Below are positions 22,777-25,020 of a DNA stretch of 64,000 nt, in pieces. The notes beneath the pieces were generated by a model that was given only the letters and a program-made list of their open reading frames with translations, did no database searches and was not told where the DNA came from. The stretch's first letter is position 1. Each line of letters opens with the position of its first letter. Source of the DNA: Terriglobia bacterium (GTDB taxonomy: Bacteria; Acidobacteriota; Terriglobia; Terriglobales; Acidobacteriaceae); contig JAIQEU010000013.1 in the NCBI GenBank assembly GCA_020073665.1, positions 124,001-188,000 of the forward strand, in the 5' to 3' direction. Position numbers and translations under genes: made by a program.

Positions 22777-22799
22777 GGCACACTTTCTCCCAGTGTGCC
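22777..22799 (+). other. Inverted repeat in the leader of the metallopeptidase gene
   Basis: GGCACACT (22777-22784) and AGTGTGCC (22792-22799) are perfectly complementary around a 7-base loop. There is no T-run, so it is more likely an operator or a leader hairpin than a terminator. It lies 36 bases before the preferred start of the next gene. Confidence 0.5.
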
Positions 22800-22835: not shown

Positions 22836-23846
22836 GTGAACAACAACGGAAAAGTTCGGCCAGATTTTCAGGAGCTCCTCAGCAAGCCCATTCGCGAGTT
22901 GGGGCTGACGCTGGAGGGATCCCCGGTCGATCGCTTCGTGCAGCAGTTGTACCGCGAGCTTGACCGCAAGAAGCTGAAGAAGTTCCGGCCGAATTTCTAT
23001 CTCACTGACGAATGGGGCTGCCCGTCGGGGGAGCCGGTGATTGGGATTCCGTTTTATCTCGCCCGCCCCGACCTGGCGCTGCTGGAAAAAGAGATGAACG
23101 ATCTCGAGACCACGCGCGAGATCATGATGTACATCCGGCACGAAGCTGGCCACGCGTTCAACTACGCCTACAAGCTGCACCGCACGCCAGAGTGGAAACA
23201 GTTGTTTGGGCCGTTTCGCCGTCCCTATCGCGATAATTACCGGCCGGTGCCATTCTCGCGAAATTTTGTTCGCCATCTGGCCGGGTGGTACGCGCAGAAG
23301 CATCCCGACGAAGATTTTGCCGAAACTTTTGCGGTGTGGCTCACCCCGCGTTCGGCGTGGCGCAAGCGTTACCGCGGCTGGGGCGCAATGGCGAAGCTGC
23401 GCTACATGGACCGCATTGCGCTCGAGCTGGGCCACACCGACCCCGTTCGCCGGCGCGGCCGCACCGACATTACCGTCGATGAAATGGAATCCACCGTAGG
23501 CGAGTTCTATCGGCAGTCAGTAGCAGAAGCGATTCCGATTGCCGATTTGGCGCTGGACACCGACCTGGTAGACATTTTCAATGTTTCCAAGAGGCGCAAA
23601 GGCGCCACGCCGGCCGGCGACTTCCTGTACGCGCACCGCAAGGCCGTGGTCGATAAGATTGCGTACTGGTCCGGCGTTCAGCGTCCGCTGATTAAGCAAC
23701 TGGTTGAGGCCATCGGGAAGAGAATCGGAGAACTCGGACTGGTCGCCGATCGCAGCCGGGAATCGGAGCACCTGGCGGAAATCACCGTGTACGCTACCAC
23801 CCTGGCCATGAACTATATGACCCGGGGAAAATTTATTCAGCCATGA
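22836..23846 (+). CDS. Putative zinc metallopeptidase (Peptidase_Mx-like)
   Basis: The 336-residue protein carries HEAGH (His102, Glu103, His106), a zinc-protease motif, and a second conserved block HPDEDFAETFAVWL (Glu163) whose acidic residue could be the third zinc ligand. The spacing and the stretch between them (FGPFRRPYRDNY, then FVRHLAGWYAQ) recall the putative zinc-binding peptidase family Peptidase_Mx. No signal peptide is seen, so it should be cytoplasmic. I chose GTG at 22836; GTG at 22773 is in frame but would include a hairpin. It is followed after 94 bases by an ATP-grasp ligase on the same strand, which suggests a joint role in making or trimming a peptide-like product. Confidence 0.75.
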   Translation: MNNNGKVRPDFQELLSKPIRELGLTLEGSPVDRFVQQLYRELDRKKLKKFRPNFYLTDEWGCPSGEPVIGIPFYLARPDLALLEKEMNDLETTREIMMYIRHEAGHAFNYAYKLHRTPEWKQLFGPFRRPYRDNYRPVPFSRNFVRHLAGWYAQKHPDEDFAETFAVWLTPRSAWRKRYRGWGAMAKLRYMDRIALELGHTDPVRRRGRTDITVDEMESTVGEFYRQSVAEAIPIADLALDTDLVDIFNVSKRRKGATPAGDFLYAHRKAVVDKIAYWSGVQRPLIKQLVEAIGKRIGELGLVADRSRESEHLAEITVYATTLAMNYMTRGKFIQP

Positions 23847-23850
23847 GGAA

Positions 23851-23914
23851 CAGTCGTCCGTCATCCGTCGTCAGTCGTCCGCAAAGGCCGACGCCTCGCT
23901 TCGCTCGGAATCAC
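23851..23914. repeat. Period-7 tandem repeat, CAGTCGT family, followed by a TTCGCTCGG word
   Basis: Four units of seven bases start 4 bases after the metallopeptidase stop: CAGTCGT, CCGTCAT, CCGTCGT, CAGTCGT (23851-23878). After a short gap comes CTCGCTTCGCTCGGAATCAC at 23895-23914. The core TTCGCTCGG recurs at 29101-29120 next to another period-7 tract. Confidence 0.85.
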
Positions 23915-23940
23915 CGTGGGCGGGCAATTGGGAGGCCGCA

Positions 23941-25020
23941 ATGATCGGAGCAAAACTTAAGATTGCCGTGCTGTACGACGTCTGGGAAGAGGAAGATACC
24001 CCTCCCGAGCCGGTGGAGGAGAAAGCTGCGGCCAAGAAGTCGCGGAAGCCGGCGCGCCGGGAAAAGGAAGATCGCGAAGAAATTTTTGAGGCGCTGGAAA
24101 AGCTGGGCCACCAGCCGTTCTACCAGGTATTGGACGGCCGTCCGCAATCGCTCGCTGCCCTGGCCAAGTGCGGCGCCGACCTGGTGTTTAACCTGACCGA
24201 GTCGTTCAGCGGCGACGATACCATGGACATGAACATCGCCGCCTACCTGGACCTGGTTGATATGCGCTTTACAGGCGGCGGACCGCACGCATTTTTTCTG
24301 TCGCAAGACAAAGCCACTGCCAAGAAAATGTTTGCCTTCCACGGCATTCGAACTCCGTATTTCGCGACTTCGTACCGCGGCCGCATCGAGCACGCGCACG
24401 ACATAGCCTTCCCGCTAATCGTGAAGCCGCTGGCGGAAGATGGTTCCATCGGAATCGAAGCCAATGCCGTGGTGAACAGCGTTAAAGAACTGATGGAGCG
24501 GGTGGAGAGCATTGAAGACAACTTCGATTCTCCGGCGCTGATCGAGGAATACATTGAAGGCCGCGAAATCTACGCCGCCATTCTGGGCAGCTACGAGCAT
24601 GCCCACGCGCTGCCGCTGGTGGAGCTCGATTTTTCCCGCTTGCCGAAAGGCACCCCGAGAATTGCCAGCTGGGAAGTGAAGTTCGACAAGAGCACCGAGG
24701 CCCACCGCCTGACCAAGTCCGCGGTGGCGAAAGATCTGGACGAAGATACCACCCACCTGCTTTCGGAGACCGCGCTGGCGGCCTACCGCGCGCTCAAGCT
24801 GCGCGATTACGGCCGCATTGACATGCGTCTAACGGAGAAAGGCGAGGTGTACGTGATCGAAGCCAACCCCAACCCCTGGCTGGCCAGCAAGCACGAATTT
24901 GCCATGGCCGCGAGGGCATCCGGCCGGACCTATACCCAGTTGATCGGTGAAATCGTCGACCTGGCGATGGCGCGGTACATGAATCGCGATCGCGCGAAAC
25001 CCAACTTCCAGAAGGCCTGA
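23941..25020 (+). CDS. ATP-grasp ligase, D-Ala-D-Ala ligase-like
   Basis: The 359-residue protein matches the D-alanine-D-alanine ligase fold: an N-terminal domain (KIAVLYDVWEEED), then LVFNLTESFSGDD, SQDKATAKKMFAFHGI, the ATP-binding PLIVKPLAEDGSIGIE, ALIEEYIEGREIYAAI, and the metal-binding IDMRLTEKGEVYVIEANPNPWLA. An unusual basic insert (about 22-42, Lys/Arg/Ala-rich) sits early in the chain. D-Ala-D-Ala ligases proper lie in murein gene clusters; this one is paired with a metallopeptidase instead, so another amino-acid or peptide substrate is likely. ATG at 23941 follows GGGAGG. The family is clear; the substrate is not. Confidence 0.85.
   Translation: MIGAKLKIAVLYDVWEEEDTPPEPVEEKAAAKKSRKPARREKEDREEIFEALEKLGHQPFYQVLDGRPQSLAALAKCGADLVFNLTESFSGDDTMDMNIAAYLDLVDMRFTGGGPHAFFLSQDKATAKKMFAFHGIRTPYFATSYRGRIEHAHDIAFPLIVKPLAEDGSIGIEANAVVNSVKELMERVESIEDNFDSPALIEEYIEGREIYAAILGSYEHAHALPLVELDFSRLPKGTPRIASWEVKFDKSTEAHRLTKSAVAKDLDEDTTHLLSETALAAYRALKLRDYGRIDMRLTEKGEVYVIEANPNPWLASKHEFAMAARASGRTYTQLIGEIVDLAMARYMNRDRAKPNFQKA

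Follow-up and report, generated by a model that had tools for sequence, protein, structure and literature searches.

Pairs of an ATP-grasp ligase and a protease are already known as a kind. RimB takes off the glutamates added by RimK to the ribosomal protein RpsF, and it has a stimulating effect on RimK as well (PMC11957791). In Pseudomonas aeruginosa, the RloA protease and the ATP-grasp protein RloC share an operon, and deletion of rloB or rloC (the ATP-grasp gene) rescues protease mutants (PMC12239564). The subject here is another pair of this general kind, found in a Terriglobia bacterium of the phylum Acidobacteriota (assembly GCA_020073665.1, contig JAIQEU010000013.1, positions 124,001 to 188,000 of the forward strand; this 64,000-nucleotide stretch is the window referred to below). 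It consists of a zinc metallopeptidase gene followed by a gene for a ligase with the fold of D-alanine–D-alanine (D-Ala-D-Ala) ligase (Ddl). The two enzymes are a conserved functional pair, and the ligase is predicted not to make D-Ala-D-Ala. The original prediction, made from the sequence of the window, had placed two co-directional open reading frames here, and both are present as claimed:

22836..23846, + strand: zinc metallopeptidase gene, Peptidase_Mx family (PF15887), 336 amino acids, GTG start, stop at 23844-23846
23847..23940, + strand: intergenic gap between peptidase and ligase, 94 bases
23941..25020, + strand: gene for a Ddl-fold ATP-grasp ligase, predicted not to be a Ddl, 359 amino acids, ATG start, stop at 25018-25020

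As in RimK/RimB, the gene of an ATP-grasp ligase adjoins that of a cytoplasmic protease. The families differ: RimB is a retropepsin-like aspartic protease, whereas the enzymes here are a Ddl-fold ligase and a zinc enzyme of the HExxH type, and among the Pfam matches of the two proteins (E up to 1) there is neither a RimK family nor an aspartic protease. The families also differ from those of RloA/RloC; RloA is a secreted aspartic protease, and a membrane-bound inactive transglutaminase, RloB, is encoded with it. The prediction had called the resulting pathway undescribed. For this particular gene pair that stands in the literature searched, in which the combination of a Ddl-fold ligase and Peptidase_Mx was not found (the survey of Iyer et al. 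2009 lay outside that literature), no paper joined “zinc-binding metallopeptidase” with “D-alanine ligase”, and the name Peptidase_Mx/PF15887 was used in one paper, for another group. For the kind it does not stand, since RimK/RimB is known.

Conservation of the pair across genomes had been set beforehand as the test of its functional meaning, and the pair passes it decisively. Among 61 genomes of near relatives, the peptidase is matched (E ≤ 0.001) in 20, one of these (G053) having only a weak match of 47 residues that is not counted further. A strong ligase match adjoins the peptidase in 19/19 of the others, one of which is cut by a contig end. In G048, a twentieth ligase starts at a contig end. 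In genomes with a named taxon, the best 80 of 509 confirmed peptidase loci were compared. A family ligase lies beside the peptidase in 73 of these 80, downstream and co-directional in 65 and on the opposite strand in 8; the remaining 7 include one locus, L084, that ends at a contig edge. The pairs come from Acidobacteriota, Rokuibacteriota, Myxococcota, Gemmatimonadota, Omnitrophota, Eisenbacteria and others. Of 197 Acidobacteriota genomes drawn evenly, 52 have the peptidase, at 58 places, with an adjacent ligase at 39 of them; of 144 Myxococcota genomes, 66 have it, at 67 places (two halves of one broken match being entered once), with an adjacent ligase at 62, always co-directional and downstream. 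The gaps between the matched parts of adjacent pairs have medians of 37 bases in Acidobacteriota and 27 bases in Myxococcota, and in loci L082, L086 and L112, the start of the downstream gene overlaps the upstream stop.

The module appears to have no third partner. In a clustering of open reading frames of at least 80 amino acids, the two members of the pair were found in 79 and 68 of the 80 named loci and the next most common neighbor cluster in no more than 5. Neighbors that recur are local to clades: CBM_11 proteins beside Omnitrophota pairs, a protein kinase in some Myxococcaceae, an M28 peptidase, APH and a helicase. In four Omnitrophota loci (L123:5317-5955, L111, L130 and L131), a similar same-strand reading frame precedes the pair, and the one of these that was scanned matches CBM_11. 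No fusion of the two genes was noticed among the loci inspected, in which long open frames near the matches lay in other frames, and searches of plasmids and phages gave no match.

A convergent arrangement of peptidase and ligase is seen in L113, L116, L117, L118, L120, L124, L126 and L173. The tree described below includes six of these ligases (all but L117 and L126), which group as a second clade and have NQYDD and NCNPC-like motifs. The arrangement gives the impression of a separate association with this peptidase family.

The fold of the ligase is that of a Ddl. It matches the Pfam domain Dala_Dala_lig_C (PF07478) with 98.8 bits against a cut-off of 24, and its predicted model, with a mean predicted local distance difference test score (pLDDT) of 91.4, superimposes almost end to end on the Ddl structure 8evz (Z 33.5, 290 residues, root-mean-square deviation 2.2). 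Like the Ddl and Van ligases, it has an intact ATP-grasp core. The ATP/Mg-site residues R292, D294, E307 and N309 are invariant in 34/34 ligases of an alignment (A3) made of the window's own protein, one relative and 32 of the 73 peptidase-adjacent ligases from the named loci. Their equivalents in Escherichia coli DdlB are presumably R255, D257, E270 and N272. The difference from Ddl and Van lies in the parts that bind the substrates, where three signatures are replaced:

23980..24072, + strand: basic insert, about residues 14-44, at the position of the Ddl GGxSxE loop
24187..24207, + strand: FNLTESF, residues 83-89, with E87 at the place of the histidine in Ddl HGxxGED
24865..24897, + strand: NPNPWL..E loop, residues 309-319, replacing Ddl NTxPGxT, with N309 kept and an acidic residue at 319

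These changes are shared by the family. A table of motifs was made for 113 ligases (from the named loci, rows of 250 to 420 residues scoring at least 100; from other loci, rows of at least 130 bits). In it, the GG of the GGxSxE loop is missing in 60/60 paired ligases and present in 6/7 Ddl rows, the seventh being a cut sequence with a gap at that position. At the HGxxGED position, E or D stands for H in 59/60 paired rows, compared with H in 6/7 Ddl rows, with one gap in each group. The NTxPGxT motif is found in 0/60 paired rows and in 7/7 Ddl rows; in its place, the loop starts with NxN(P/A/C) in 57/60 paired rows and has an acid at the 11th place in 57/60. An acidic residue at the end of what is the second-substrate loop in Ddl suggests that a positively charged acceptor, rather than a free carboxylate, may be held there.

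The best NCBIfam Ddl model gives 133.7 bits, well short of its cut-off of 243, and none of the NCBIfam Ddl and Van cut-offs is reached among the matches listed (25 of 52 families matched). In a tree of 88 of the 113 ligases, for which the paired rows were thinned from 60 to 37 and a short Ddl row and an X-rich row were set aside, all 37 paired ligases fall into one clade with a support of 100/99. The same clade also holds four unlinked ligases, one ligase lying 5 kb from its peptidase and one row from the opposite strand. Elsewhere in the tree, one unlinked ligase (L166) groups among the Ddls, and L155-L160 and L169 make up a well-supported clade of single unlinked ligases with an NPNPDLTE-like motif, from the acidobacterial family f36. 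The genome that carries the window has its true Ddl at another place (G000:C6:373976-374785), and this is only 24% identical to the ligase. With the three substrate signatures missing, a product of the D-Ala-D-Ala type is not to be assumed, and it is rejected as very improbable on the grounds of the motifs, the NCBIfam cut-offs, the tree and the separate Ddl. By sequence and predicted fold, the protein thus reads as a Ddl-fold enzyme but not a D-Ala-D-Ala ligase; the description “of the D-Ala-D-Ala type” in the original prediction is right for the fold and probably wrong for the product. The extra basic insert that it reported is real. It is a variable loop rich in K, R and E with low model confidence (pLDDT about 54-72 by ten-residue blocks), common to the acidobacterial members and absent in those from Myxococcota and Omnitrophota.

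The first gene of the pair encodes a protein that passes the Pfam cut-off for Peptidase_Mx (PF15887; 33.6 bits, cut-off 27) and has an intact zinc-site motif:

23139..23153, + strand: HEAGH, residues 102-106, with H102 and H106 as putative zinc ligands and E103 as putative catalytic glutamate
23310..23324, + strand: EDFAE, residues 159-163, with E159 as predicted third zinc ligand

H102, H106, E159, D160 and E163 are invariant in 38/38 aligned peptidases (A4: the window's own, one relative and 36 of the 80 named loci), and E103 and Y152 are each present in 37/38. The ligand role of E159 is assigned by an E-x-F-A-E motif that we take to be that of M34-type zincins, and the conserved residues fit an active enzyme of the HExxH...E-x-F-A-E type. 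The predicted model (pLDDT 89.6) aligns over residues ~1-201 with zincins of this type, a group that includes PPEP-1/2/3 and lethal factor, with 13-18% identity in the top rows. Z is about 10 against the protease domain of lethal factor and 8-9 against the best Pro-Pro endopeptidases; because values of this size can reflect a common arrangement alone, the M34-type assignment is tentative. The top Foldseek row is 4l7a, titled a putative zinc-binding metallo-peptidase from Bacteroides caccae, which is matched weakly and by fold alone (E 0.16, with no row below 0.001; Z 7.0). No solved sequence homolog was found in the Protein Data Bank, where phmmer gave no match and a profile search only two unrelated weak rows. 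Unlike the M34-type zincins, to which these searches detected no sequence similarity, the peptidase has an additional C-terminal helical domain, which makes up the last third of the model and is barely covered by the fold search, and it lacks a secretion signal. Neither protein of the pair has a hydrophobic stretch of the kind found in signals or membrane segments (highest Kyte-Doolittle means over 19 residues, 1.14 and 0.97), so that the earlier term “cytoplasmic” is reasonable.

Ddl-fold ATP-grasp ligases activate a carboxylate and join it to an amine. The most natural reading of the pair is that one enzyme makes a peptide-like bond and the other processes or breaks it. The ligase would use ATP to convert a carboxylate to an acyl phosphate and join this to an amine, giving an amide or peptide bond other than that of D-Ala-D-Ala, and the acceptor may be basic, given the acidic residue in the loop that holds the second substrate in Ddl. 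The co-encoded zinc peptidase would then cut the product of the ligase family, by removing it, trimming it or limiting its length, and the amount of product would be set by the balance of the two activities. This chemistry is inferred, as is the action of the peptidase on the product of the ligase, and we see about equal chances for and against the pair being a dedicated cytoplasmic make-and-break module.

A dependence of the peptidase on this ligase family is apparent in the Acidobacteriota draw. A family ligase, defined there as a non-Ddl match of at least 150 bits, is present in 52/52 genomes with the peptidase, compared with 25/145 without it (Fisher p 8e-29). The pair is co-directional in 29 of the 52 genomes and convergent in 6; in the other 17, no ligase adjoins the peptidase. 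Twelve of these 17 carry a tandem pair of ligases instead, defined by two family matches no more than 400 bases apart on the same strand, and the other 5 have an unlinked ligase of the paired type, identified by the tree in G072 and G085 and by profile scores in G172, G175 and G191, the call for G172 being less clear (381 vs 345 bits). The convergent ligase of G215 also scores as paired-type and is counted as such. With the 29 co-directional ligases assigned to the paired type by position and score rather than each by the tree, tandem ligases are found in 17/17 peptidase genomes that have no paired-type ligase and in 1/35 of those that have one. Without the corrections for G215 and the unlinked ligases, the counts are 17/23 and 1/29 (p 7e-8). 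The single exception among the 35, G083, has three peptidases. Since the peptidase is co-inherited with the ligase family whatever the sub-type, the amide product of that family is the best candidate for its substrate.

Ten of the tandem loci were opened (L149, L150, L151, L153, L154, L167, L168, L170, L172 and L174, all Acidobacteriota). Their ligases are of the same family as the paired ones but belong to other clades, and they are accompanied by a GNAT gene in 10/10 loci and by a lysine-2,3-aminomutase-like (KamA) radical SAM gene in 8/10, the other two loci being cut short or having no aminomutase within reach. No peptidase is linked to the cassette in the loci opened. The aminomutase matches the lysine 2,3-aminomutase structure 2a5h with an E value of 6.9e-113, and D293 and D330, as counted in the alignment with 2a5h, are present in 8/8 of the sequences. 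These are the aspartates that we take to hold the side chain of lysine, a role for which no confirming paper was found in the literature searched. The cassette is predicted to be a beta-lysine amide pathway in Acidobacteriota. At the threshold used, no aminomutase-like reading frame turned up in the 80 named peptidase loci, and a LAM_C (PF12544) match in the window's own genome was also not found. A bolder idea, which we consider improbable as it stands, is that a class of amide-bonded compounds or protein tags has gone unrecognized, that all its members share the peptidase as their hydrolase, and that they come from either of two interchangeable ligase routes, one with the single paired Ddl-fold ligase and the other with the tandem cassette fed by lysine-2,3-aminomutase through beta-lysine chemistry. 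The eraser would be kept under either route, and the acceptor of the paired form would be a similar basic amine.

Several observations weigh against the make-and-break model. The 25 peptidase-free Acidobacteriota genomes with family ligases indicate that the ligases can work without the peptidase, and the role of the peptidase could be to supply the ligase, not to reverse its work. The distances among peptidases and among ligases correlate at 0.93 over 54 loci (those passing length and score filters; 0/2000 permutations as high), but this correlation owes part of its strength to shared descent. The complementarity of paired and tandem ligases follows family lines (f36, f16, f50, f35, f49 and f70), so that the counts overstate the number of independent events. 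Myxococcota do not show it; many of their genomes have several family ligases whether or not the peptidase is present. Finally, the peptidase of L080 (619-1698, Rokuibacteriota) has HGAGH instead of HEAGH, which should abolish catalysis unless it is a sequencing error.

The main rival to the make-and-break model takes up the reverse order of action: a fragment released by the peptidase from a cellular protein or peptide is modified by the ligase, giving a peptide natural product. The same scheme has been proposed for branches 7 and 8 of the graspetide ATP-grasp ligases, which are strongly tied to peptidases and lack precursor genes (PMC8939145). The nearest solved folds to the peptidase are endopeptidases, as this scheme would have it. 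However, the 80 named loci share no precursor, exporter or tailoring gene among reading frames of at least 80 amino acids, and the Ddl fold takes small substrates in the cases known; on balance we find the scheme rather unlikely. The make-and-break model also has a special case in which no protein is the target. Here, the ligase would make a free dipeptide or N-acyl amine that serves as a compatible solute or store, and the peptidase would recycle it. The aminomutase and GNAT genes of the sister tandem cassettes encode the types of enzyme that make solutes of the N-acetyl-beta-lysine type, and the patchy presence of the pair without a mobile context is in keeping with such a role; but the paired form is accompanied by no transporter, osmosensor or aminomutase, and its own genome yields no LAM_C match, and we regard this special case, too, as unlikely.

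Co-location of two enzymes with unrelated substrates, both serving one stress response, would fit with the peptidase being unlinked from any ligase in 17/52 Acidobacteriota genomes. It seems very unlikely given that all 17 still carry a family ligase and that no other gene is co-conserved. Most improbable of all is that the ligase is a second D-Ala-D-Ala (or D-Ala-X) ligase and the peptidase a D,D-peptidase, with a part in cell wall recycling or tolerance to antibiotics. The Ddl fold and Pfam domain would allow it, but the substrate motifs are replaced family-wide, the NCBIfam Ddl/Van cut-offs are unmet, the bona fide Ddl is encoded elsewhere in the genome, and the flanks inspected contain no murein genes.

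Ligases of this family are at risk of being labeled as cell wall ligases, as their match to the Ddl Pfam domain and to NCBI Ddl models below the cut-off hides a separate family. As a two-gene module without a third partner that occurs across Acidobacteriota, Myxococcota, Omnitrophota, Rokuibacteriota and others, the pair is small enough for reconstitution in the test tube. If the make-and-break model is true, the pair would stand beside RimK/RimB as a counterpart built on a zinc protease, and it could lead to a new modification or metabolite in soil bacteria, which are difficult to work with.

The position of the pair away from murein genes, as first described, is borne out for the flanks inspected. 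The upstream neighbor is presumably gyrase A, as read from its open reading frame without a family scan. Downstream are a 4Fe-4S membrane protein gene on the opposite strand and a Cyclase-family gene. The leader of the peptidase gene contains the hairpin that was thought to regulate the pair:

22777..22799, + strand: 8-bp inverted repeat in the leader, perfect, with a 7-base loop; probably outside the system

The repeat itself exists, but a role as a conserved regulator is rejected. Among the upstream regions of the 25 closest named relatives, only 3 have a perfect 7-bp repeat, and at other positions. Perfect repeats of this kind are common in the window (27 observed vs 12.5 expected under a first-order model), and the whole leader folds no better than its shuffles (z 0.11).

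Within the gap between the two genes, at 23850-23890 of the window, lie short direct repeats of CGTC/GTCAGG-like units. Gap repeats are also present in locus L003, after position 2502, and their sequence varies between relatives.

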